Assembly: GCA_009782165.1 (NCBI GenBank)
Contig: WQUH01000171.1
Coordinates: forward strand, 1-11,313
DNA from: Pseudomonadota bacterium
GTDB lineage: Bacteria > Desulfobacterota > Desulfobulbia > Desulfobulbales > Desulfobulbaceae
Direction: 5' to 3'
Length of the DNA: 11,313 nucleotides
Both the position numbers and the translations under genes were made by a program. The notes beneath the pieces are model-generated. The model had not been told where the DNA came from. It made no database searches and was given only the letters and a program-made list of their open reading frames with translations. Of the stretch, positions 1-10,974 are shown in pieces; position 1 is the stretch's first letter; each line of letters starts with the position of its first letter.

Positions 1-1172
1 AAGCCGTTGGTGCCGGGCAGGCCCACCGCCGCCAGGGTAAAGAGGAGAAAGAAGCCGGCAAAGACCGGCATGGTCGAGGCCAGGCCGCCATAGGCCGCGA
101 TTTCACGGGTATGGGTCCGTTCGTAGACCATGCCCACGGCCAGGAACAGGGCCCCGGTGACCACGCCGTGGTTGATCATCTGCAGGATGGATCCTTCCAG
201 GCCCCGCTGACTCAAGGCGAACAGCCCCAGGGTGACGAAACCCATGTGGCTGACCGAACTGTAGGCGATCAGGCGTTTGAGATCGGTCTGGGCCAGGCAG
301 ATGACGGCGCCGTAGACAATGGCGATCACCGACAGCGCCAGCATGGGCAGCATCATCTGCTGGGTGGCCTCCGGCAGGATGGGCAGGGAAAAGCGCAGGA
401 AACCGTATGCGCCCATCTTGATCAGCACGCCGGCCAGGATGACCGAACCGGCGGTTGGGGCCTCGGTGTGGGCGTCGGGCAGCCAGGTATGCACCGGCCA
501 CATCGGCACCTTGACCGCAAAGGCGGCGAAAAAGGCCCAGAAAAGCACGAGTTGCAGCCTGATGGGATAGTCCTGCCCGGCCAGTTTGACAATGTCAAAG
601 GTCTGACCGCCGTTCTGATAGAGGAGGATGATGCCGACCAGCATCAGCAGACTGCCGACCAGGGTGTAGAGAAAGAATTTGACGGTGGCGTAGATCCGGT
701 TCGGACCGCCCCAGATCCCGATGAGCAGAAACATCGGGATGAGCATGGCCTCCCAGAAGATGTAGAACAGGATAAAATCGGTGGCGCAGAACACCCCCAT
801 CATGGCTCCTTCCAGGAGCAGCATGGCAATGAAGAATTCCGACACCCGGTCGCTGACCGATTTCCAGGACACCAGCACCGACAGCGCGATAATCAGGGCG
901 GTGAGCAAGAGAAAAAGAATGCTGATGCCGTCGATGCCCAGACTGTAGTTGATGTTCAGGGCGGGGATCCACGGGCGGTGTTCGATGAACTGCATGGCGT
1001 GGGTCGACTTGTCGAACAGCAGGACCAGCGGCAGGGTCAGGCACAGTTCGACCAGACTGACGAAGAGCGCCATGGTCCGGATGGTGGTGGTGTGCTGCCT
1101 GGGGACGCACAGCAACGACACGCCGCCGAGGACGGGAAAGAAGATCAGGGTGCTGAGCAATGGCATGGTCAT
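1..1172 (-). CDS. nuoM: NuoM, proton-pumping antiporter-like subunit of complex I (3' end cut by window edge)
   Basis: Membrane-arm subunit M of complex I, related to Mrp antiporter subunits, which moves protons across the cytoplasmic membrane. I translated the minus strand: 390 complete codons are present and the gene runs off the left edge in a conserved LPGTNG stretch, so roughly the last quarter is missing. Key antiporter residues are visible: Glu141 in FWEAMLIP, Lys221 in AVKVPMWPVHTWLPDAH, and Lys252 in GVLIKMGAYG. The 31-residue spacing between the two lysines equals that of E. coli Lys234/Lys265. Many hydrophobic helices are evident. The start is taken at ATG 1172; a second in-frame ATG lies at 1166. 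Neither has a clear Shine-Dalgarno sequence, so translation may be coupled to nuoL, which ends 25 nt upstream. The start is uncertain by a few codons; the identity is firm. Confidence 0.96.
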   Translation of the reverse strand, partial: MTMPLLSTLIFFPVLGGVSLLCVPRQHTTTIRTMALFVSLVELCLTLPLVLLFDKSTHAMQFIEHRPWIPALNINYSLGIDGISILFLLLTALIIALSVLVSWKSVSDRVSEFFIAMLLLEGAMMGVFCATDFILFYIFWEAMLIPMFLLIGIWGGPNRIYATVKFFLYTLVGSLLMLVGIILLYQNGGQTFDIVKLAGQDYPIRLQLVLFWAFFAAFAVKVPMWPVHTWLPDAHTEAPTAGSVILAGVLIKMGAYGFLRFSLPILPEATQQMMLPMLALSVIAIVYGAVICLAQTDLKRLIAYSSVSHMGFVTLGLFALSQRGLEGSILQMINHGVVTGALFLAVGMVYERTHTREIAAYGGLASTMPVFAGFFLLFTLAAVGLPGTNG

Positions 1173-1197
1173 CGCGATTTTTTCGTAATAGTTCGGG

Positions 1198-3120
1198 TTA
1201 GAGGCCGATCAGCAGCACGGCCACCAGGGCCAGGGCGCCGCCGCCCATCCAGGCGAGGTAATGCGAAATCTGGCCGTCCTGCAGCCCTCGCAACCGTTCG
1301 GCCAGCCGGCCGATGCTCCGGGGCAGGCCGTTGACCACGCCCTCGATGCAGGCCACGTCAACGATCCGCAGCACCACCTTGCGGCTGAGGGTCAGGGTCG
1401 GCTTGACCAGGATGGCGTCGTACAGTTCATCGACATAGTACTTGCGCAACAGCATCCGGTAGATCATGGGCAGCCGTTCGGCCAGCAGGCCGGGCAGGTG
1501 CGGCCGCATCCGGTACAGATAATAGGCCAGGCCGATGCCACAGGCCCCGGCCAGGACCGAACTGAACATGAGCAGGCCCTCGACGAAGCCGGACACATGC
1601 ACATGGGGATGGCCAAGCACCGGTTCGAGGAAAGCGGCCCAGCGGTTGCCGCCGCCCAGCAGGGCGGGCACGCCGAACCAGCCCGCGGCCACGGCGCCGA
1701 CCGCCAGCAGCATCAGGGGCACGGTGACCACTGCCGGGGACTCGTGCAGATGGTGGCGCTGTTCCTCGGTGCCGCGGAATTCGCCGTGGAAGATGAGGAA
1801 CAGGAGGCGGAAGGAATAGAAGGCGGTCATGAAGGCGACCAGGGTGCCGATGGCCCAGGCGAACTTGCCCGCCGCCAGGTCGGTGTTGAAGGCCATGAGC
1901 AGGATCTCGTCCTTGCTGAAAAAGCCAGCCAGGCCGGGCACGCCGGCAATGGACAGCGAGGCGAGGAGAAAGGTCCAATAGGTGATGGGCATCTGCCGTT
2001 TCAGGCCGCCCATGGAGCGCACATCCTGCTCGTGGTGCATGCCGAGGATCACCGAGCCGCAGCCGAGAAACAGCAGGGCCTTGAAAAAGGCATGGGTGAA
2101 CAGATGGAAGACACCCGCCGAATAAGCGCCGACGCCGCAGCCGATGAACATGTAGGCCAACTGGCTGACTGTAGAATAGGCCACCACCCGCTTGATGTCG
2201 GTCTGGACCAGGGCGATGGTGGCGGCGAACAGGGCCGTGATCGCGGCGAGCACCGTGATCAGGTTGAGGGTCGTGGGCGAGAGGGCGAAGATCGGATTGC
2301 AGCGGGCGACCAGAAAGACGCCGGCCGTGACCATGGTGGCGGCATGGATCAGGGCGCTGACCGGGGTCGGGCCTTCCATGGCGTCGGGCAGCCAGACATG
2401 GAGCGGGATCTGGGCCGACTTGCCGATGGCCCCGCAGAAAAGCAGGAGCGCAATCAGGGTGGCCGCGTCGATCTGGTTGCCAAGGAGGTTGAAGGTCTTG
2501 CCCTGCAGGATGCCGACATTGCTGAACACCTCCTGATAGTGGAGGCTGCCGAACAGGGTGAAGATGAGCAGCAGGCCGATGAGAAAACCGAAATCACCGA
2601 ACCGGTTGACGATGAAGGCCTTTTTGCCGGCATCGGCGGCCGACTGTTTGTTGAAGTAGAAGCCGATCAGCAGGTATGAAGAGAGTCCCACCGCCTCCCA
2701 GCCGAAAAAGAGCTGGAGAAAATTGTTGCCCAGCACCAGCATGAGCATCGAGAAGGTGAACAGGCTCAGGTAGGCGAAGAAACGGTAATAGCCTTCCTCG
2801 CCCTTCATATAGCCCACCGAATAGATATGGACCAGCGAACTGACGCTGGTGACCACGATCAGCATCACCGCGGTCAGTTGGTCGACCAGAAAGCCGACTG
2901 AAACAGTCAAGTTGCCGGACAGGATCCAGGTGTAGATGTCCTGGTTGATGATCACGCCCGACCGGACCCGGAAAAAGGCGGACAGGGCGCAGCAGAAGGA
3001 AATCAGCACCGCGAGGATCGGCAGCCAGTGCGCCCGCGCGCCCCAGCGCCTGCCCACAAGCAGGGTGACGATAAAGGAGGCCAGCGGCAACAGGGGAATG
3101 GCAAGCAGTGAGGCCGGCAT
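1198..3120 (-). CDS. nuoL: NuoL, distal proton-pumping subunit of complex I
   Basis: Membrane-arm subunit L (640 aa, near the usual 600-650), the distal antiporter-like proton channel that also carries the long lateral helix along the membrane arm. Hallmarks in order: Glu142 in FFGWEAVGLSSYLL, FIVNRFGDFGF near residue 170, Lys234 in AIGKSAQIPLHVWLPDAM, His259 in ALIHAATMVTAG. These match the conserved Glu/Lys/His proton-path residues of E. coli NuoL (Glu144, Lys229, His254). A long amphipathic and hydrophobic C-terminal section follows, as expected. The start ATG at 3120 gives the typical hydrophobic N-terminus MPASLLAIPLLPL; an AAGG lies 9 nt upstream. The frame stays open about 129 codons further upstream, but that stretch lies antiparallel in frame space over nuoK and is arginine/histidine-rich nonsense. 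The gene begins 5 nt after the nuoK stop. Confidence 0.98.
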   Translation of the reverse strand: MPASLLAIPLLPLASFIVTLLVGRRWGARAHWLPILAVLISFCCALSAFFRVRSGVIINQDIYTWILSGNLTVSVGFLVDQLTAVMLIVVTSVSSLVHIYSVGYMKGEEGYYRFFAYLSLFTFSMLMLVLGNNFLQLFFGWEAVGLSSYLLIGFYFNKQSAADAGKKAFIVNRFGDFGFLIGLLLIFTLFGSLHYQEVFSNVGILQGKTFNLLGNQIDAATLIALLLFCGAIGKSAQIPLHVWLPDAMEGPTPVSALIHAATMVTAGVFLVARCNPIFALSPTTLNLITVLAAITALFAATIALVQTDIKRVVAYSTVSQLAYMFIGCGVGAYSAGVFHLFTHAFFKALLFLGCGSVILGMHHEQDVRSMGGLKRQMPITYWTFLLASLSIAGVPGLAGFFSKDEILLMAFNTDLAAGKFAWAIGTLVAFMTAFYSFRLLFLIFHGEFRGTEEQRHHLHESPAVVTVPLMLLAVGAVAAGWFGVPALLGGGNRWAAFLEPVLGHPHVHVSGFVEGLLMFSSVLAGACGIGLAYYLYRMRPHLPGLLAERLPMIYRMLLRKYYVDELYDAILVKPTLTLSRKVVLRIVDVACIEGVVNGLPRSIGRLAERLRGLQDGQISHYLAWMGGGALALVAVLLIGL

Positions 3121-3125
3121 GTGCT

Positions 3126-3428
3126 TTAACCTTGCAGATGGTTGATGGTATCGACGTGGACGCTGCGCCTGCTGCGATAGAGGGCAATGGCGATGCCCAG
3201 CCCGATGGCGGCCTCGGCCGCGGCCACGGTGATGATGAAAAAGGTGAAGGCCTGGCCGCGCACACTGTCGAGGAAATGGCTGAGCGCCACCAGGTTGAGG
3301 TTGACGCCGTTGAGCATCAGCTCGATGGACAGAAACATGACGATCACGTTGCGACGGGTGAGAAAGCCGCACACGCCGATGCAAAACAGGATGGCCGCCA
3401 GGGCCATGTACCAGGACAGGGGAATCAC
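3126..3428 (-). CDS. nuoK: NuoK, small membrane subunit of complex I (GTG start)
   Basis: Three-helix membrane subunit K (100 aa, the standard family length), part of the proton path between NuoJ and NuoN. The conserved membrane glutamates fall at Glu36 (FLSIELMLN) and Glu72 (VAAAEAAIG), exactly the E. coli positions. The start is GTG at 3428: it yields the family-typical N-terminus (M)IPLSWYMALAA and has AGGAGGT 6 nt upstream. A longer ATG-started reading from 3482 would add 18 residues of unrelated sequence. The GTG overlaps the nuoJ stop as GTGA (3425-3428), which implies translational coupling. The C-terminal tail after the third helix (SRRSVHVDTINHLQG) is of ordinary length. Confidence 0.98.
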   Translation of the reverse strand: MIPLSWYMALAAILFCIGVCGFLTRRNVIVMFLSIELMLNGVNLNLVALSHFLDSVRGQAFTFFIITVAAAEAAIGLGIAIALYRSRRSVHVDTINHLQG

Positions 3429-4012
3429 CGGAGCACCTCCTGATGGTCGGCATGGGCCGCGGAACATGCCGTGGCCTCGCATTCGCCGGCTGCGCCGACA
3501 CGTTCACCCTGGTTCCGACGCGCCAGCACCAGGCCGCCGATCAGGGCGACCAGCAAGATCAGGCCCGCGATCTCGAAGGGCAGCAGATAGTTGGCATAGA
3601 GTTCCTGGCCCAGGGCCTTGGTATGGGTTGCCTGGCGAATGGCTTCGACTGTCCAGACGCCTTTCTCGCCCAGGGTGAAAACAGGAATGGTCGCGACCAG
3701 ACCCAGGGCCAGACCGGCGGCGATGATCCGGCCGAGCCAGGCGCTGGGGACAAAGGCGGTCAGGTGGAGTTCATCGCGCAGATTGACCAGAAACAGGACA
3801 AACAAGTAGAGCACCAGGATGGCGCCGGCATAGACGATGATCTGCACCGCGGCCAGGAACTCGGCATTCAGGGTCAGATACAGTCCGGCCATGTGGAAAA
3901 ACAGCACCAGGACCATGAGCACACAGTGGACCGGATTGCGCAGGCTGATGGCCAGAAGGCCGCTGGCGACAATCATCAGGGCGCAGTAGATGAAAAAGAG
4001 CTGGAAAAACAT
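3425..4012 (-). CDS. nuoJ: NuoJ, membrane subunit of complex I
   Basis: Subunit J (195 aa) of the membrane arm, next to NuoK and NuoA. Five hydrophobic helices are apparent, including the diagnostic third helix AAVQIIVYAGAILVLYLFV around residues 54-72, the site of the pi-bulge rotation known from complex I structures; Glu51 and Tyr61 are the polar residues there. The start at ATG 4012 (MFFQLFFIYCALM) has AAGGAGGG at 4017-4024, which overlaps the nuoI stop codon. The open frame extends upstream to 4174 but would add 54 residues with no NuoJ character. The C-terminus after about residue 170 is a polar, cysteine-containing tail (GECEATACSAAHADHQEVLR) that is likely cytoplasmic or poorly conserved. 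It ends in a 4-nt overlap with nuoK. Confidence 0.97.
   Translation of the reverse strand: MFFQLFFIYCALMIVASGLLAISLRNPVHCVLMVLVLFFHMAGLYLTLNAEFLAAVQIIVYAGAILVLYLFVLFLVNLRDELHLTAFVPSAWLGRIIAAGLALGLVATIPVFTLGEKGVWTVEAIRQATHTKALGQELYANYLLPFEIAGLILLVALIGGLVLARRNQGERVGAAGECEATACSAAHADHQEVLR
3435..3441 (-). promoter_or_regulatory. Ribosome binding site for nuoK GTG start
   Basis: AGGAGGT on the minus strand lies inside the end of nuoJ and 6 nt before the GTG at 3428. It supports the non-ATG start of nuoK and reinitiation at the GTGA overlap. Confidence 0.85.
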
Positions 4013-4016
4013 CGCA

Positions 4017-4024
4017 CCCTCCTT
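4017..4024 (-). promoter_or_regulatory. Ribosome binding site for nuoJ
   Basis: AAGGAGGG on the minus strand, overlapping the nuoI stop codon and a few nt before ATG 4012. It fixes the nuoJ start against the 54-codon longer open frame. Confidence 0.85.
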
Positions 4025-4661
4025 AAACGTGTCCCGGCGGAAGATGCTGCCGCCAGAGCCGTCCCACCACCTGTTGTTCTCCGCTCCACTCAGACGGCAC
4101 CGGGAGCCGTTTCGGTGCGGGCAGATCGCCTTCCGCCAAGCCGCGCGGCCGCCAGAACGGATTGAGATACCCATCGGCCTGCGAGTCCGGTTGGGACACG
4201 AACCGGTCCCAGTTGTCCAGCAACTGTTCCTTGGTGAACAGCAACGAAGGCCGCTCGAATCGGCTGTACTCGAATACCTTGGTGAGGACGATGGCGTTCA
4301 CCGGGCAGACCTCCTCGCAAAATCCGCAGTAGACACACCGGGGGGCCTCGATGCGGTAGTCATCAATCACCCGGCGGTTGCCCGCCTTCGGGTCTCGGTG
4401 CGTCCGGATCTGGATGCAGCGCGATGGACAGACCGCAACGCAGCGCATGCAGCCGACACAGGTACTGTCGCCGGTCGCGGCATCCCGCACCAGGGCGTGC
4501 TGGCCGCGAAAACCGGCGCAGACCTGCGGCCGCTCGTCGGGGTACTGACGGGTGATCGGCTTGGAAAAGAGCCGCTTCAGGGTCAGGTTCATGCCCTGGA
4601 GGATCTCGATCTGGAAGATCGTGCCCAGCCAACCGCGCCGGGGTTTATACTGAATCTGCAT
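4023..4661 (-). CDS. nuoI: NuoI, 2x[4Fe-4S] ferredoxin-like subunit of complex I
   Basis: Peripheral-arm subunit I (212 aa) carrying clusters N6a and N6b that pass electrons to N2 in NuoB. Two ferredoxin motifs are complete: Cys68/71/74 followed by Cys78-Pro, and Cys109/112/115 followed by Cys119-Pro. The N-terminal segment LKRLFSKPITRQYP (about 28-41) is the usual membrane-surface amphipathic helix of NuoI. The start ATG at 4661 is 15 nt after nuoH; its Shine-Dalgarno is weak (a G-run about 11 nt upstream). ATG 4592 is an alternative but would remove the conserved N-terminal segment. The protein is about 30 residues longer than E. coli NuoI (180 aa), owing to a proline/tryptophan-rich C-terminal tail from about residue 170. 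With NuoE, F and G absent, NuoI is likely the exposed electron entry surface (inference). Confidence 0.97.
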   Translation of the reverse strand: MQIQYKPRRGWLGTIFQIEILQGMNLTLKRLFSKPITRQYPDERPQVCAGFRGQHALVRDAATGDSTCVGCMRCVAVCPSRCIQIRTHRDPKAGNRRVIDDYRIEAPRCVYCGFCEEVCPVNAIVLTKVFEYSRFERPSLLFTKEQLLDNWDRFVSQPDSQADGYLNPFWRPRGLAEGDLPAPKRLPVPSEWSGEQQVVGRLWRQHLPPGHV

Positions 4662-4676
4662 TGTGTAGTTATCCCC

Positions 4677-5645
4677 CTAGGTGAGGATCGCCTTCAGGCA
4701 GGCGGTGAGGACAATATTCGCCAAGGCCAGCGGGATGAGCATCTTCCAGCCCAGGTCCATCAACTGATCGTAGCGGTAGCGCGGCAGTGTGGCCCGGATC
4801 CAGATGAAGATAAACATGAACAGATACACCTTGAGCACGAACCACAGCGGCGGGAAAAAGGGAACCGGAAAGGGCCCGTGCCAGCCGCCGAGAAAACAGA
4901 GGGTGCCGATGGAGGCCATGACCATCATGCCGATGTACTCGGCCATGAAGAAGATGGCGTACCGCATGCCGCTGTATTCGGTGCAGTAACCGGACACCAG
5001 CTCGGTCTCCGCCTCGGGCAGGTCAAAGGGCACCCGATTGGTCTCGGCCAGCATGCTGATGAAGAAAACAAAAAAGCCGAGGCATTGCGGCAGAAGATAC
5101 ATGCCGAGGAAACGGTCGCCCTGGGCCTCGACGATGGCGCTCAGATTGAGCGAACCCGCCAGCAGCATGACCCCGACCAGGCTCAAGCCCATGCTGATCT
5201 CATAGCTGATGACCTGCGCCATGGAGCGCATGCCGCCCAGGAAGCTGTATTTGGAGTTGGACGACCATCCGGCCAGCACCACGCCGTAACTGGCCAGCGA
5301 ACTCATGGCGAAGACGAACAGCAGACCGATGTCGATGTCGGCCAGTACCCAGCCCTTGGCAAAGGGCAACACCGCCAGCGAACTCATCATCGCCACCAGG
5401 CAGATGATCGGCGCGGCCAGGAAGGTCGGCCGGTCGGCGTTTTCAGGGATGATGTCCTCCTTGAAAAAGGACTTGACGCCGTCGGCAATGGGCTGGAGCA
5501 GGCCGTGCCAACCGACCCGCATCGGTCCCAGCCGCACCTGCATGTGGCCGATGATCTTGCGCTCGAAGTAGGTTGCGTACGCCACATGGAGCATGACCAC
5601 CGTAAACAGGATCACAATCCACACAATCAGGAGCAGAATTTCCAT
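4677..5645 (-). CDS. nuoH: NuoH, quinone-site membrane subunit of complex I
   Basis: Subunit H (322 aa, normal length; ND1 homologue) anchors the peripheral arm to the membrane and forms the quinone-binding cavity with NuoB and NuoD. Visible signatures: YFERKIIGHMQVRLGP (26-41), GLLQPIADGVKSFFKED (48-64, ND1 signature 1), and AETNRVPFDLPEAETELVSG (200-219, signature 2) followed by YCTEYSG. About eight hydrophobic helices are present. The start is ATG 5645, with GAGGG 5 nt upstream, giving MEILLLIVWIVILF. An in-frame ATG at 5711 would overlap nuoD and add 22 polar residues not typical of the family. The gene follows nuoD after only 40 nt, in the place where nuoE, F and G lie in a canonical 14-gene operon. 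Confidence 0.98.
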   Translation of the reverse strand: MEILLLIVWIVILFTVVMLHVAYATYFERKIIGHMQVRLGPMRVGWHGLLQPIADGVKSFFKEDIIPENADRPTFLAAPIICLVAMMSSLAVLPFAKGWVLADIDIGLLFVFAMSSLASYGVVLAGWSSNSKYSFLGGMRSMAQVISYEISMGLSLVGVMLLAGSLNLSAIVEAQGDRFLGMYLLPQCLGFFVFFISMLAETNRVPFDLPEAETELVSGYCTEYSGMRYAIFFMAEYIGMMVMASIGTLCFLGGWHGPFPVPFFPPLWFVLKVYLFMFIFIWIRATLPRYRYDQLMDLGWKMLIPLALANIVLTACLKAILT

Positions 5646-5650
5646 ACAAT

Positions 5651-5655
5651 CCCTC
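5651..5655 (-). promoter_or_regulatory. Ribosome binding site for nuoH
   Basis: GAGGG on the minus strand, 5 nt before ATG 5645. It supports this start rather than the ATG at 5711 inside nuoD. Confidence 0.7.
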
Positions 5656-5685
5656 GGGTTCGGAACATTCCAATTCGAAAATGGG

Positions 5686-6912
5686 TCACCGGTCAGATTC
5701 GCCCAGCACAATGTCCAGGCTGCCGATGTTGGCGATCAGGTCGGCGACCAGCCCGCCCTTGGCAATCGCGGCCATGGCCCCGATGTGAATGAACGAGGGC
5801 GAGCGGATATGCATCCGGTAGGGCCGGCTGCTGCCGTCGGAGATGAAATAGAAACCCAGTTCGCCCTTGGGCACCTCGGTGGCCACATAGATATCGCCGG
5901 CGAGGTAGGGGCCGCGGTCGCGGATGAGCTTGATCAGTCCGGCGCCGTAGGTCGTAGCGCCCGCTGCGATGCGGGGCGACGCCTTGGCGGGCATGACCAG
6001 ATCCGGGGCGTCCGGGCCGACGATCGGGCCGGGGGGCAGTTGGTCGATACACTGCTGGATGATCCGCGCCGACTGGTGCAGTTCTTCCATGCGGCAGCGG
6101 TAGCGGGCGTAGATGTCGCCGTCGCGGCCCAGAGGCACCTCGAAATCGACCAGGCCGTAGGCGTCGTAGGGTTGGTGCTTGCGGATGTCGTAATCGATGC
6201 CCGAACCGCGCAGGCAGGCCCCGGTCAGTCCCAGGGCCAGGGCCTCCTCGCCCGTGACCTTGCCGACGCCCACCGTGCGCTTGAGCCAGATGCGGTTGGT
6301 ATCGATCAAGGTCTCGTATTCTTCCATCTTGGATGGAAAGATGTCGAGAAAGCGCTGTAGTTCGCTGATGAAGCCGGCGGTCACATCCTGGCGGACCCCG
6401 CCGATCCGGGGATAGGAAAAGGTCAGCCGCGCCCCGCACAGTTCCTCGAACAGATCCAGCAGGATCTCGCGTTCGCGGAAACAGTAGAGAAACACGGTCA
6501 TGGCGCCGATATCCAGGGCATGGGTGGCCAGCCAGAGCAGATGCGAACAGATCCGCGACATCTCCGCGACCATGGTGCGGATATATTTGGCGCGCAACGG
6601 CACCGAGATGGAGAGCAGACGCTCCACCGCCACGCAGTAGCCGACATTGTTGGCCATGGCGGCGATGTAGTCGAGCCGGTCGGTGAGGATCAGCCCCTGG
6701 GCATAGGTTCTGCTTTCCGCCAGTTTTTCAATGCCCCGATGGAGATAGCCCACCTGCGGCATGCAGGCGAGGATGGTCTCGCCGTCCAGTTCGAGATCGA
6801 CCCGGAGCACGCCGTGGGTGGCCGGGTGCTGCGGCCCCATGCGCAGCGAGTAACGCTCGCCCTCGCCGTCGGGCACCGGCACTTCCAGATGTTGCATCAA
6901 GGGACGGCTCAT
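5686..6912 (-). CDS. nuoD: NuoD, 49-kDa-type quinone-reducing subunit of complex I
   Basis: Subunit D (408 aa), homologous to the large subunit of [NiFe] hydrogenases but without the metal-binding cysteines; it forms the quinone headgroup site beside cluster N2. The family markers are present: GPQHPATHGVLR (26-37), with His29 and His33 in the quinone loop, VGYLHRGIEKLAE (54-66), Tyr70 in the following TYAQ (position of the quinone-ligating Tyr of Thermus Nqo4), and the C-terminal IGSLDIVLGESDR. It is encoded separately from NuoC, unlike the NuoCD fusion of E. coli. The ATG at 6912 overlaps the nuoC stop as ATGA, indicating translational coupling. Length and motifs argue for a functional subunit. 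Confidence 0.98.
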   Translation of the reverse strand: MSRPLMQHLEVPVPDGEGERYSLRMGPQHPATHGVLRVDLELDGETILACMPQVGYLHRGIEKLAESRTYAQGLILTDRLDYIAAMANNVGYCVAVERLLSISVPLRAKYIRTMVAEMSRICSHLLWLATHALDIGAMTVFLYCFREREILLDLFEELCGARLTFSYPRIGGVRQDVTAGFISELQRFLDIFPSKMEEYETLIDTNRIWLKRTVGVGKVTGEEALALGLTGACLRGSGIDYDIRKHQPYDAYGLVDFEVPLGRDGDIYARYRCRMEELHQSARIIQQCIDQLPPGPIVGPDAPDLVMPAKASPRIAAGATTYGAGLIKLIRDRGPYLAGDIYVATEVPKGELGFYFISDGSSRPYRMHIRSPSFIHIGAMAAIAKGGLVADLIANIGSLDIVLGESDR

Positions 6913-7496
6913 GGCGAATCCTCCCGACTTGGCGCCGCCTGTCCGGGCGCATGTCCTTGCGGGTCAAAACCGTATTGGTCAAGCTCTTTAACCTTGGCGA
7001 GCAACTCGGTCATGCCGCTCCACTCCTCCGCTCCCCTGAGCGGGTAGTCCTTGCGCAGGGGATAGCCGACCCAATCATCCGGCAGCAAGACCCGCCGCAA
7101 ATCGGGATGGTTGTTGAAGCGGATGCCGAGCAGGTCGTAGGTCTCCCGTTCCAGCCAGTCGGCTCCGGACCAGAGTTCGACCACCGAATCGATGCCCGCC
7201 TCCCCGTCGTCCACCGCAGCCCGCACCCGGATCTCGTGGCGCAGGGAGACGGAATAGAGATTGTAGACCACCTCGAACCGCGACAATCCCTGCTCCTGGC
7301 GGCCGGCATTGTCCACCCCGCACAGCGAGCGGAGGTGGTTCATCCGGATGCCATCGGTCTCCCGCAGCCAGCGGAGGATATCGACAATCCGCCCCGGCCG
7401 GACGACCACCGCCGTCTGGCCCTGGTGGGTGTACGTGTGCAGGATTGTATCGGGAAATTCGGCCCGCAGCCGGTCGGCTATCGCCATTGACTCCAT
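6909..7496 (-). CDS. nuoC: NuoC, 30-kDa-type peripheral subunit of complex I
   Basis: Peripheral-arm subunit C (195 aa), a scaffold without cofactors that packs on NuoD, NuoI and NuoB. The complex I 30-kDa signature is clear: [20 protein letters not shown] (about 116-135), followed by [18 protein letters not shown]. The start ATG at 7496 overlaps the end of nuoB by 19 nt and has GGAAGAG about 5 nt upstream; ATG 7487 is a possible alternative. The stop overlaps the nuoD start by 4 nt. The C-terminus ends in a polar, proline/glutamine-rich tail ([15 protein letters not shown]), probably flexible. Confidence 0.97.
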
Positions 7497-7999
7497 CGGT
7501 ACTCTTCCTTGCGAATCTTTTCCTGAAGTTGCAGAAAACCTTCGAGCAACGCCTCGGGACGGGGCGGACAGCCGGGAACATACACGTCCACCGGAATGAT
7601 CTGATCAACCCCCTGGGTAACCGCATAGGTGTCGAACACACCGCCGCTGCACGCGCAACTGCCCATGGCCAGGACATAGCGGGGTTCGGGCATCTGGTCG
7701 TACACCCGCCGCAACACCGGCGCCATTTTCTTGCTCAGGGTGCCGGCCACCACCATGCAGTCGGCCTGCCGGGGGCTGGCGCGGAACAGGATGCCGAACC
7801 GGTCGAGATCGTTGGTCGAGGCGCCGGCATCCATCATCTCGATGGCGCAGCAGGCGAGACCGAAGGTCACCGGCCAGATCGAACCGGCCCGCCCCCAGTT
7901 GACCAGCTTGTTCAACGGCCCGAGGAGGGCATTGGCACCGGGAATGTGCCGGACTCCCTCCGCCAGCTTGACCACGGCCGGATCGGCTATTTTTCCCAT
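7478..7999 (-). CDS. nuoB: NuoB, cluster N2 subunit of complex I
   Basis: Subunit B (173 aa) holds the terminal [4Fe-4S] cluster N2 that reduces quinone; it is homologous to the small subunit of [NiFe] hydrogenases. All four ligands are visible: the tandem pair Cys50-Cys51 ([12 protein letters not shown]), Cys115 in GSCACSGG, and Cys144 in VPGCPPRPE, matching E. coli Cys63, Cys64, Cys129 and Cys158 in spacing. The start ATG at 7999 has AGGAGGT 6 nt upstream (8006-8011 and flanking) and overlaps the nuoA end by 13 nt. It sits between nuoA and nuoC in the standard order. Intact ligands imply a working quinone-reducing branch. Confidence 0.98.
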
Positions 8000-8361
8000 T
8001 GCAGCACCTCCTTCTTCCAGGCGTACACATAACCGACCAGCAGCAGTCCGATGAACAACAGCATCTCCACCAGGGCGAACATCCCCAGATGGCCATAGCT
8101 CACCGCCCAGGGATACAGGTAGATGACCTCGACGTCGAACACCACGAACAGGATGGCAATCAGGTAAAACTTCACTGAAAAGCGCAGCCGTGGGGCTTCA
8201 GTGGGCTCGTTGCCCGACTCGTAGGCGATCAGTTTTTCCCGATACGGCCTGCTGAGGCGGAAAAACCGCCCCACCAGCAACAGGAGCACGCCAAAGAGGA
8301 CGCCGAAGGCAAAAAGCAGCAGAATACCGAAGTATTCCCTGGGCAGGGTGTCCATGGTCAT
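7987..8361 (-). CDS. nuoA: NuoA, small membrane subunit of complex I
   Basis: Three-helix membrane subunit A (124 aa; ND3 homologue), whose cytoplasmic loop lies over the quinone cavity. The loop motif [20 protein letters not shown] is followed by the second-helix motif [15 protein letters not shown] with Asp76 and Glu78, the acidic pair conserved in NuoA. The loop has Ser (Tyr-Glu-Ser-Gly) where many homologues, including mitochondrial ND3, have Cys. Two starts are possible: ATG 8361, used here, and ATG 8355. A GGGG run lies 7 nt before the second but only 1 nt before the first, so [10 protein letters not shown] may be the true N-terminus. The gene follows the FeS protein by only 7 nt, tying the molybdoenzyme pair to the complex I genes. 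Confidence 0.97.
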
Positions 8362-8368
8362 GCCCCGT

Positions 8369-8872
8369 TCAGCGTCGGTTCTGGATCATCAGTTCGGCAA
8401 AGGATTGCCGTGCCGACTGGGAAGCCGCCGAGGGCGTGGTAAACGTCAGGCAACCGGTGGTGCACTTGCTGACGCAGGCCGGTTCCAGCCCCGCATCGAT
8501 CCGGTCTTTGCACAGGTCGCATTTTCCCACCTTGCCGGTTTCGGCATTCCACTGGGGCACGGCCCAAGGGCAGGCAATGATGCAGGCCTTGCAGCCGACA
8601 CAGGCGCTTTCCTCGACAAAGACGATGCCGTCCTGATCGCGCCGTTGCATGGCGCCAGTCGGGCAGGCATCGACGCACCAGGGTTTTTCGCAGTGGAAAC
8701 AGGACAGGTACACGAAATCGATCTGGGGAGGCGAAGTCTTCGCCGAGTCGACCTCGATCATCCGGCAGTAGAAAGCGCCGGGCCCGGAATCATTCTTGTC
8801 CTTGCAGTGGACCTCGCAGGCCCGACAGCCGATGCAGTCGGCCACTTGCTGAGTAACGATGTATTTGCTCAT
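8369..8872 (-). CDS. Four-cluster [4Fe-4S] electron-transfer subunit, DmsB/PsrB/HycB-like
   Basis: A 167-aa iron-sulfur protein that most likely carries electrons to or from the molybdoenzyme encoded just upstream. Sixteen cysteines fall into four groups: 13/16/19/23, 58/61/66/70, 91/94/97/101 and 118/121/133/137, the pattern of the DMSO/polysulfide reductase B subunits and of HycB of formate hydrogenlyase. Cys36 and Cys141 are extra. No Tat or Sec signal and no membrane helix is visible, so it should be cytoplasmic. The start ATG at 8872 has GGGAGGA 8 nt upstream and lies 17 nt after the molybdoenzyme stop; nuoA starts 7 nt after its end. No NrfD/PsrC/DmsC-type anchor is encoded next to it. 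Electron transfer to the NuoI or NuoB clusters is inferred from context only. Family assignment is sure; the partner is not. Confidence 0.93.
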   Translation of the reverse strand: MSKYIVTQQVADCIGCRACEVHCKDKNDSGPGAFYCRMIEVDSAKTSPPQIDFVYLSCFHCEKPWCVDACPTGAMQRRDQDGIVFVEESACVGCKACIIACPWAVPQWNAETGKVGKCDLCKDRIDAGLEPACVSKCTTGCLTFTTPSAASQSARQSFAELMIQNRR

Positions 8873-8889
8873 GATGGTATTCCTCCCGT

Positions 8890-10974
8890 TCAGGCCAAGG
8901 TCACGGTGACAAAGCTTTCCGCCAGGTTGATGCCGCCGCCGGCCTTATCCCATTCCTTCAGTTTGCCCTGCATGAATATCTGGTCGGCCAGCCCCTTGCC
9001 GAACGCTCGTTTCTGGGCTGGGATATCGGTGCCGAAACCGTGCAGCATGAACACCGCTTCCGGATGGATGAGGTCAGTGACATAGGCGGCGATTTTGCCC
9101 TGGATGTCGCCGTTGGCCACCGTGACCATATCGCCGTCCTTGATGCCGAGCTTGCCGGCGGCAGCGGTGTTGATCCACAGTCGGTTGGTGTCGAGCAGGT
9201 CGCAGATGATCGGGTTGTTATGGTGCTGTCCGTGCGTCTGATAGCCGGCACGGCCGATCAACAGGCGAAAGGAACCCTCGGGCGGCGCCTCGGGTGCGAC
9301 ATACGGCGGCAGCGAAGGCACGCCCATGGCCTCCCATTTGGCATTGACCAGCTCGATCTTGCCGGAATCGGTGGGGAACTTGAGTTTGTCGCGGTCGTAC
9401 CAGATGGCCTTCTTGCTCAGTTTGACAAACCCCTTGGCGTCGAAATCGGCGCTGGTCAGGCCGGTATCCTGCAACTGATACTGCCAGATATCTTCAATGG
9501 AGTTGAAGGGGAAGTATTCGCCCTTGCCCAGCCGTTTGGCCAATTCAAGGTAGATCTCCCAGCCGGCCTTGGTGTTGTTCAACGGCTTGACGGCTTGCTG
9601 CCGGCGGCCGAATCCGGGTTTCAGTCCTTTTTCAGTGCGCAGGATGGAGTCGCGCTCCATAAACGTGCTTTCCGGCAGGATCACGTCGGCAAACCAAGCG
9701 GTTTCGCTGAAGTTGATATCCACCGCCACAATCAGATCGAGTTTGTCGAGGATCCGCCGCTGCTCCCTGGTGTCGGGCAGGGCGATCAACGGGTTGTGCC
9801 GGTGGACGAAATAGGCCTTGACCGGGTACGGCACCCCGGTATCGATGGCTTCAAAAGCGGTCTGAAGCATACCCGCGCCCTTGTCCCACTGCGGATAGCG
9901 CGTGCCGCAACCGTCGGCCCGCTCTTCCTTCACCGCCGGCACCAGGGCGGCCAGGCTCTTGAGGCCGGATTTGCCGGCATCCTTGGGCCCCTTGGGATAA
10001 AACAGGCCACCAGGCTGCTCGATGCTGCCCATGAGCGCGTTGAGAATATGGATCATCCGCGAGGCATAGAAAGAATCGCGGTAGCGGGCCAGCATCCAGC
10101 CGGGATGAATGATCACCTTGGGGCGGTCATTGTTCAATTCATGGCAGAAGGCTTCGATCTCGGCGGCCGGAATGCCGCATTCCCCGGCAGCCCATTGGGG
10201 AGTATAGGGTTCGAGAAAATTCTTGAACTCGGCCAGGCCGGTGACATAGCGGGCCACGAAGTCCTGATCGTAGTAGCCGTTGTTCACGATGCAGTGGGCA
10301 ATCCCCAGCAGCAAGGCGTAATCGGTGCCGGGCTTGACCTGCCAGTACCGGCTGGCCTTGCCGGCGGTGACCGAAGCGCGCGGATCGATATAGGTGAGCC
10401 GGGCGCCGTTCTTGATGCCCTTGAGGACGCTCTTTACCTCCTTGACCCGAAGCGACTCGGTGATGTTGCGCCCAAACAGCACGATATGACGGGTGTTTTC
10501 GTAGTCGTAGGCAAAATCCTTCCGCCCCAGGCCATACACCGACTTGGAGGCATGCTGGACGTTGCGGCCGCAGGTGCAGTCGTGGTTGTGATAGTTGGGC
10601 GACCCCAGGGCCTTGAGAAAGGCCTGGCGCAGATCGACGAAGGGGCCGCCGCGATCGGAAAAGATGATTGATTTGCCGCCGTGTTCGGCGATGATGGGCT
10701 TCAACCGGCTGACAATATAGTCAAACGCCTCGTCCCAGGAAACCTCCCGCCACTCCCCTGCCCCGCGCCGCCCCCGGCGCACGAGCGGCGCCATCGGCCG
10801 CTGCTGGTCCCGGCGCTGGGCCAAGGCCGCCCCGCCCTTGGCGCACAGACTCGCGCCCATGCCGCCATCGTTGCGGTTCCCCTCGATCCACACGGGCTGA
10901 CCGTCCTCCACTTGCACGGTTACCGGACAGCGCACAGCGCACATCCCGCAAATACTGTACTTCGTCTCTTTCAT
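8890..10974 (-). CDS. Molybdopterin (Mo-bisPGD) oxidoreductase, PhsA/PsrA-like catalytic subunit without Tat signal
   Basis: A 694-aa member of the DMSO reductase superfamily. Domains in order: an N-terminal [4Fe-4S] motif (Cys9, Cys12, Cys16, Cys44; CX2CX3CX27C) followed by Lys46; molybdopterin-binding central domains, including HDCTCGRN (131-138), where Cys135 is the probable Mo ligand, and HIVLFGRNITES (163-174); and a C-terminal dinucleotide-binding domain from about residue 575 with YQTHGQHHNNP, GDMVTVAN and a KRAFGKGLADQ stretch. The C-terminal part and the cysteine-type Mo site resemble thiosulfate/polysulfide/sulfur reductase A subunits. Those are usually exported by Tat; here the protein begins directly at the FeS motif, so it should stay in the cytoplasm. 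ATG 10974 is chosen because AGAGGAG lies 7 nt upstream and the product then starts like mature homologues. The frame is open to 11097, with an ATG at 11043. Substrate unknown: thiosulfate/polysulfide, another oxyanion, or formate are possible. First gene of the operon. Confidence 0.92.
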   Translation of the reverse strand: MKETKYSICGMCAVRCPVTVQVEDGQPVWIEGNRNDGGMGASLCAKGGAALAQRRDQQRPMAPLVRRGRRGAGEWREVSWDEAFDYIVSRLKPIIAEHGGKSIIFSDRGGPFVDLRQAFLKALGSPNYHNHDCTCGRNVQHASKSVYGLGRKDFAYDYENTRHIVLFGRNITESLRVKEVKSVLKGIKNGARLTYIDPRASVTAGKASRYWQVKPGTDYALLLGIAHCIVNNGYYDQDFVARYVTGLAEFKNFLEPYTPQWAAGECGIPAAEIEAFCHELNNDRPKVIIHPGWMLARYRDSFYASRMIHILNALMGSIEQPGGLFYPKGPKDAGKSGLKSLAALVPAVKEERADGCGTRYPQWDKGAGMLQTAFEAIDTGVPYPVKAYFVHRHNPLIALPDTREQRRILDKLDLIVAVDINFSETAWFADVILPESTFMERDSILRTEKGLKPGFGRRQQAVKPLNNTKAGWEIYLELAKRLGKGEYFPFNSIEDIWQYQLQDTGLTSADFDAKGFVKLSKKAIWYDRDKLKFPTDSGKIELVNAKWEAMGVPSLPPYVAPEAPPEGSFRLLIGRAGYQTHGQHHNNPIICDLLDTNRLWINTAAAGKLGIKDGDMVTVANGDIQGKIAAYVTDLIHPEAVFMLHGFGTDIPAQKRAFGKGLADQIFMQGKLKEWDKAGGGINLAESFVTVTLA

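Follow-up and report, generated by a model that had tools for sequence, protein, structure and literature searches.

The window analysed here is the whole of an 11,313-bp contig (C171) from a metagenome-assembled genome (MAG) that is 57% complete and 1.47 Mb in size. It is filled by one minus-strand operon, in which genes for a molybdenum (Mo) enzyme and an iron-sulfur (FeS) protein precede the genes of a respiratory complex I, nuoA, B, C, D, H, I, J, K, L and a cut nuoM. The closest named proteins and loci to the window proteins are those of Desulfobulbus. The first gene (8890..10974; all window coordinates given here are on the minus strand) encodes a 694-residue oxidoreductase of PhsA/PsrA type, assigned to the Mo-bis(pyranopterin guanine dinucleotide) (Mo-bisPGD) enzymes by Pfam PF04879, PF00384 and PF01568, NCBIfam PRK15488 and PDB 2vpw_A. 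It has a predicted N-terminal [4Fe-4S] cluster and no export signal, and would be the catalytic head. The second gene (8369..8872) encodes a putative four-cluster [4Fe-4S] adaptor of 167 residues and PsrB/PhsB/HycB type, recognized by PF13247, the best PDB match (2vpw_B), its cysteine pattern and an AlphaFold model.

The nuo genes follow as nuoA (7987..8361; PF00507), nuoB (7478..7999; PF01058, and TIGR01957 above its cut-off), nuoC (6909..7496; PF00329, and TIGR01961 above cut-off), nuoD (5686..6912; TIGR01962 above cut-off), nuoH (4677..5642; PF00146), nuoI (4023..4661; TIGR01971 above cut-off), nuoJ (3425..4012; PF00499), nuoK (3126..3431; PF00420), nuoL (1198..3120; TIGR01974 above cut-off) and nuoM (3..1172; TIGR01972 above cut-off), which is truncated by the contig end. 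The Mo and FeS genes are 17 nt apart, the FeS gene ends 7 nt before nuoA, and the nuo genes overlap or lie at most 43 nt apart. No nuoEFG was found in the window operon among its open reading frames or by Pfam and NCBIfam models. The original prediction, made from the letters of the window, had described a cytoplasmic-type Mo protein, an FeS protein and nuoABCDHIJKLM in one tight operon without nuoEFG; this layout was borne out, and the coordinates gave the same two gaps of 17 and 7 nt. nuoN is not visible in the window because the contig ends inside nuoM; in a relative (L134) it lies directly after nuoM (L134:4039-5481; TIGR01770, 442 bits, above cut-off).

All core subunits A-D and H-M visible in the window were recognized by Pfam or NCBIfam subfamily models. 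NuoB carries tandem cysteines (Cys50-51) and two further candidate N2 ligands (Cys115 and Cys144), NuoD, the quinone-site subunit, has PATHG and RLDY motifs and no NiFe-type CxxC, and NuoI has two CxxCxxCxxxC motifs. We take the NuoB cysteines to hold cluster N2, the NuoD motifs to supply the quinone-site His and Tyr, and the NuoI motifs to bind [4Fe-4S] clusters. Judged by these models and motifs, the nuo core is a true quinone-type complex I. A Shine-Dalgarno scan of the window was uninformative (53 matches versus 37.7 expected), and a tRNA search found none in it.

The molybdenum protein and its iron-sulfur partner

PhsA (PRK15488) was the best NCBIfam model for the window Mo protein, at 544.6 bits and below its cut-off of 694. 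It also ranked first for each of the seven Mo proteins that were scanned (six linked to nuo and one unlinked). Formate dehydrogenase alpha came second for the window protein (234 bits versus a cut-off of 666). The closest PDB entry was PsrA of T. thermophilus (2vpw_A). Because no RR (twin-arginine) motif occurs within residues 1-50 and all 20 rows of an alignment keep Met1, the Mo protein should be cytoplasmic. When ligands were aligned with phmmer, PsrA Cys173 met Cys133, and the ligands of ArrA and of FdhF from the H2-dependent CO2 reductase met Cys135; the His that follows the FdhF ligand met Gly136. Of these two cysteines, only Cys135 is listed as invariant across 12 aligned rows of nuo-linked and unlinked Mo forms. 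The Mo ligand is probably a cysteine, Cys133 or Cys135.

The original prediction had counted 16 cysteines in the FeS protein. Sixteen do fit the canonical four-cluster pattern and are invariant in 24 rows; the total is 18. From the same 24-row alignment, the AlphaFold model reached a predicted local distance difference test score (pLDDT) of 80.6 and a predicted template modelling score (pTM) of 0.64. A fold search with this model ranked PsrB (2vpw_B) first (E 5e-14), HycB4 of the CO2 reductase 10th and E. coli HycB 18th (E 3e-9), which backs the predicted fold and says nothing on docking. No NrfD-type membrane C subunit was found in the operon, to which this search was confined; nuoA follows the FeS gene.

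Conservation of the operon and exchange of its head

The genome collection was scanned with the Mo alignment, and the best 80 of 239 loci were analysed. Loci were called linked when nuo lay directly downstream of the Mo-FeS pair, and were divided at 59% identity to the window Mo protein. Among these best 80, 50 loci had at least 59% identity, comprising 47 linked loci, two that end too early (L016 and L045) and one unlinked, i.e. nuo lay directly downstream in 47 of the 48 readable loci. The 30 loci below 59% comprised two linked, five at edges and 23 unlinked. The gap between the FeS gene and nuoA was estimated to be no longer than 40 nt for 50 of the 56 pairs. Linked loci span Desulfobulbus, Desulfocapsa, other Desulfobulbaceae and Thermodesulfobacteriaceae MAGs. 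Operons of Thermodesulfobacteria type (L051, L145 and L152) have two consecutive FeS proteins between the Mo protein and nuoA.

Two genome samples were also searched by NuoD; they overlap with each other and with the named loci, and the counts are not additive. In an order sample of 117 genomes, the source genome among them, 22 had NuoD of the window class (at least 600 bits), and 21 of these carried a Mo gene in the same orientation, 2.0-2.4 kb upstream of it. The 22nd (G060) was not scorable, and FeS-like matches elsewhere in it were weak. In a phylum sample of 345 genomes, 27 had a NuoD of at least 490 bits; 21 of the operons were headed by Mo and FeS genes, four by FeS alone, and two were unreadable (G060, and G478, where the sequence ends in nuoC). 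The 21 headed operons divide into 13 of the window order, two of a family called f52 and six of another gene order. For the 13, the Mo gene was placed from coordinates; the FeS gene was seen directly in the window, L145, L151 and L152, and taken for the other nine from Mo-scan loci matched by contig and position. The check suggested with the original prediction, whether the pair stands beside EFG-less nuoA across many genomes, is thus answered yes by the readable loci and by the order sample. Because the same arrangement recurs in dozens of genomes, it is no chance event.

In three operons (L116, L117 and L118, from genomes G127, G123 and G083), identity to the window proteins is 65-75% for FeS and only 51-52% for Mo. 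In the Mo tree, their Mo proteins nest among unlinked sister forms with a Shimodaira-Hasegawa-like approximate likelihood ratio test (SH-aLRT) value of 97, and a tree constrained to group them with the main nuo-linked clade of 52 rows, from which two long rows were omitted, was rejected by the approximately unbiased test (p-AU 6e-6). In the FeS tree, they fall within the nuo-linked forms, and joining them to 13 sister FeS rows was rejected (p 0.010). Read from these trees, the Mo subunit of the three operons is replaced from a sister clade, and the FeS protein and Nuo stayed. The FeS protein appears to move together with Nuo, the behaviour that an adaptor should show. The f52 operons (L140 and L146) are a possible second case of head exchange: their Mo proteins are 43-44% identical to that of the window and their FeS proteins 65-68%, and their NuoD falls within the Desulfobulbus group in the 19-row set (100/98). 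The f52 Mo protein branches outside the other rows at a midpoint root, on a long branch that carries a long-branch warning.

The pair also heads a second complex I gene order. In family f40, all six operons of this type that were read (L136, L138 and L147-L150) run Mo-FeS-nuoB-D-I-A-C-H-J-K and then several NuoL/M-type genes, and their NuoD proteins form one clade (95/89). Five further f40 operons have the FeS gene beside nuoA and no Mo gene (L137 and L141-L144); one genome (G225) has both L137 and the Mo-FeS type. Upstream of L144 lie housekeeping genes for phosphoenolpyruvate synthase, lumazine synthase, phosphoglycerate kinase and triosephosphate isomerase, together with unknowns.

NuoEFG and the other complex I clusters

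The source genome contains a second nuo operon, of the 14-subunit type, with a nuoCD fusion and nuoE, nuoF and nuoG pieces, split over contigs C166 and C125 (L084:8001-11407 and L085:1-5124). A third Nuo-like cluster on C225 (L130:1-3626) belongs to a class called (c), which brings this Desulfobulbus-like MAG to three complex I-type clusters. The original prediction had named a separate nuoEFG set elsewhere in the genome as a finding that would speak against it. Such genes are indeed encoded there, as part of the separate 14-subunit operon, which also has a nuoCD of its own; outside the genus, the relatives showed no NuoG. In all, the order sample contains 11 genomes from outside the genus that have a linked operon (90-100% complete, one closed). 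NuoG had no match in any of them, also when the source NuoG was used as query at E 1e-20; it was found in both genus controls (G111 and G150). Among the matches listed for 49 genomes with Mo loci, whose completeness is not stated, 35 had no NuoG-like match, defined as a match to the N-terminal half of NuoG (about positions 1-330) without a selenocysteine codon. Fourteen had one (two of them partial), and 34 had neither such a match nor a NuoCD fusion among the matches listed. The source nuoEFG was rejected as the missing module, in view of the near-complete relatives that have the operon and no NuoG. Genes upstream of the Mo gene in some loci were tried as NuoE/NuoF and rejected, as Pfam assigned them to response regulators, sensor kinases and TauE.

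Class (c) complexes (L130, L131, L132, L133 and L135) are like the window operon in having no NuoEFG in the loci read, with two NuoL genes in the longer loci (L131, L132 and L133). They differ in that their NuoD is 41-43% identical and no Mo-FeS pair was found beside the complex in L131-L133. NuoD-like matches in the score range of class (c) are widespread among the order-sample matches listed.

A complex I with a probable molybdenum electron port

It is probable that the Mo-FeS pair is coupled to this complex I and replaces its NADH module, because the adjacency holds in many genomes, NuoG is missing from 11 near-complete ones, the Mo subunit was exchanged while FeS and Nuo stayed, and the pair stands before a second complex I gene order. 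The central claim of the original prediction, that the pair takes the place of NuoEFG on a true quinone-reducing complex I, is therefore well supported by comparative genomics. On balance, we favour the reading that the operon encodes an 11-subunit NuoEFG-less complex I with a PhsA/PsrA-type Mo electron port, acting as a reverse thiosulfate-type reductase. Within this reading, thiosulfate or a related sulfur compound is the likely substrate, and we give an even chance to operation mainly in reverse, from menaquinol to the substrate with proton-motive force being spent.

In such a complex, electrons would run between the Mo site and the [4Fe-4S] cluster of the Mo protein, then through the PhsB-like adaptor with its four clusters, the pair of NuoI clusters and cluster N2 of NuoB to menaquinone. 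The adaptor would dock on NuoI as its landing point, and the membrane arm would couple electron flow to proton translocation, so that menaquinol could drive substrate reduction at the cost of proton-motive force. The midpoint potential (E0') of thiosulfate reduction to sulfite and sulfide is about -402 mV and that of menaquinone about -74 mV. With these potentials, the gap from menaquinol to thiosulfate is 328 mV, or 63 kJ/mol per electron pair; at 0.17 V, the passage of four protons for every two electrons was computed to return 66 kJ/mol. Because the return slightly exceeds the cost, a reverse complex I could just drive thiosulfate reduction.

The arrangement combines features of known systems. 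Formate hydrogenlyase (FdhF-HycB-HycCDEFG), with which the original prediction had compared the pair, shares a Mo-bisPGD enzyme and an FeS adaptor with four clusters on membrane machinery related to complex I, and has a NiFe hydrogenase large subunit in place of the quinone site. In contrast, the window NuoD passes the NuoD equivalog cut-off and has no CxxC, the head is of PhsA rather than FdhF type by the NCBIfam scores given above, and the adaptor model is nearer to PsrB than to E. coli HycB. The likeness held for the layout and not for the kind of Mo protein or the closest FeS fold. With PhsABC/PsrABC of the complex iron-sulfur molybdoenzyme (CISM) family, the operon shares the A and B subunits (PhsA as best model, below its cut-off, PsrA and PsrB as best PDB matches, and a B subunit with 16 cysteines for four clusters), but it has no NrfD-type C subunit and no A-subunit export signal, and complex I stands in place of the quinone subunit. 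The accessible part of a cable-bacteria paper presents the missing PsrC in Desulfobulbaceae as a possible loss of quinone interaction (PMC13047784). The EFG-less complexes I of D. hafniense, cyanobacteria and Thermosulfurimonas dismutans are like the present one in their NuoABCDHIJKLMN core, N2 cysteines, quinone-site motifs and missing NADH module, whereas here the operon holds a dedicated molybdoenzyme and four-cluster adaptor. In the portions available of the two reports, the donor of the D. hafniense and T. dismutans complexes is either left open or suggested to be ferredoxin (PMC11238625, PMC4911364). The operon is a new complex I variant and not a new kind of machine.

Expression data from relatives bear on substrate and direction. 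In Desulfolithobacter dissulfuricans GF1, PhsA-1 is GF1_30490 and PhsB-1 is GF1_30500, and the available part of the proteome report lists the Nuo proteins GF1_30510 and GF1_30520 (NuoB) as detected only in thiosulfate-disproportionating cells (PMC9751629). In the GF1 locus (L116), the genes for Mo, FeS, nuoA and nuoB are consecutive. The same accessible part of that paper draws no link of Phs to Nuo (PMC9751629), and among openly licensed papers we found no link of PhsAB to Nuo. For Ca. Desulfobulbus rimicarensis, a transcript map, as far as accessible, names PhsAB, NuoABCDHIJKLM and TauE/SafE, with aprAB and sat transcripts highest and phsAB and dsrABCD next; either of two phsAB sets could be meant (PMC7117923). 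Its locus (L041) has consecutive Mo, FeS and nuo genes.

Several observations weigh against the proposed thiosulfate-linked hybrid. One Mo-FeS pair above the identity cut (L022:10001-12574) has no nuo beside it and an FeS C-terminus that no longer aligns; a Nuo-class NuoD was not found in its genome (G017). Four genomes have FeS-headed nuo with no Mo gene beside nuoA (L141-L144); in two of them (G258 and G487), a Mo relative lies elsewhere in the genome. The Mo and FeS groups were named after the trees had been inspected, and the Mo tree is a quick tree. None of the scanned Mo proteins reaches the PhsA cut-off (462-582 bits). In the ungapped alignment with PsrA, His145 and Arg332, which we take to be pocket residues, become Arg108 and Trp293, and the substrate of the Mo head may thus differ. 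TauE/SafE sulfite-exporter genes, which speak for a sulfur substrate, lie at most 6 kb from the Mo gene in 22 of 90 records (six nuo-linked and 16 not, two query loci counted), but this is a count without a background rate, with several weak matches and none on the window contig. In the accessible part of the GF1 report, PhsAB-1 is present in both conditions, with PhsA-1 slightly higher under disproportionation, and its authors, noting a Phs without subunit C, doubt it as a major player (PMC9751629). The GF1 head is, moreover, of the replaced Mo type, and other Nuo proteins listed there as disproportionation-only (GF1_31140 and GF1_31220) fit the class (c) complex by position. Finally, two probable Desulfurivibrio genomes (G053 and G077), from a genus of sulfur disproportionators, are without the Mo-FeS-nuo complex; they have a class (c) complex with no Mo-FeS pair beside it. 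The Desulfurivibrio dismutans proteome, seen in part (PMC12142623), was dropped as support for this reason.

Other explanations were weighed. The Mo and FeS proteins could form a separate soluble oxidoreductase (e.g. thiosulfate:ferredoxin) that shares no more than a transcript with the 11-subunit complex I, which would itself trade electrons with ferredoxin through NuoI. EFG-less complexes I without a Mo pair do exist (L131 and L132; with FeS only, L137 and L141-L144), the 23 unlinked loci below 59% identity show relatives of the pair apart from nuo, and the available part of one report proposes a ferredoxin model for Desulfitobacterium hafniense (PMC11238625). However, the adjacency holds across the phylum sample and survives replacement of the Mo protein, the FeS protein tracks the Nuo genes and not the Mo gene, and the pair occurs with two different gene orders of complex I; we consider such a soluble enzyme rather unlikely. 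Borrowing of NuoEFG from elsewhere, which would make the complex an ordinary NADH dehydrogenase and the pair incidental, is very improbable: the source genome does have nuoE, nuoF and nuoG pieces on C166 and C125, but these belong to the separate operon with its own nuoCD, and NuoG was not found in the 11 near-complete relatives, nor, among the matches listed, was a NuoG-like match in 35 of the 49 genomes.

The same hybrid might also run forward, with a low-potential cytoplasmic substrate oxidised, menaquinone reduced and protons pumped. Those parts of complex I that were seen are intact and usually work in the forward direction, and formate dehydrogenase alpha ranks second among the NCBIfam models for the Mo protein. 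Yet PhsA scores far higher (544 bits), the ligand Cys of the CO2-reductase FdhF meets Cys135 with its following His at Gly136, and the Nuo subunits of the GF1 operon are reported, in the part of the proteome available, only under thiosulfate disproportionation. Forward operation is unlikely on this evidence.

If the reverse hybrid is correct, we would tentatively describe a Desulfobacterota complex I with an exchangeable head, in which the PhsB-like adaptor stays and the PhsA-type Mo protein is swapped. In the present operon it might use proton-motive force to reduce thiosulfate with menaquinol, and so supply the reverse-electron-transport step that is missing for thiosulfate disproportionation and for the reduction of thiosulfate by PhsAB bacteria without PhsC. 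It may let sulfur-metabolising cells use membrane voltage for a difficult sulfur reaction, and offers a testable answer to how disproportionators push electrons from menaquinol to thiosulfate. It would link two loose ends, EFG-less complexes I without a known donor and PhsAB enzymes without a quinone subunit. If true, complex I would gain a Mo head among its known electron ports, and the exchange of that head would have left a natural record.

Relatives of the Mo-FeS pair were also seen before another partner. In several Desulfarculaceae/Desulfobacterales loci, Mo and FeS genes are followed by a large protein family, as if the module were plugged into an NAD(P)H-type partner; the member scanned (L064:12628-15645) has Fer4_20, Pyr_redox_2 and Fer4 domains.

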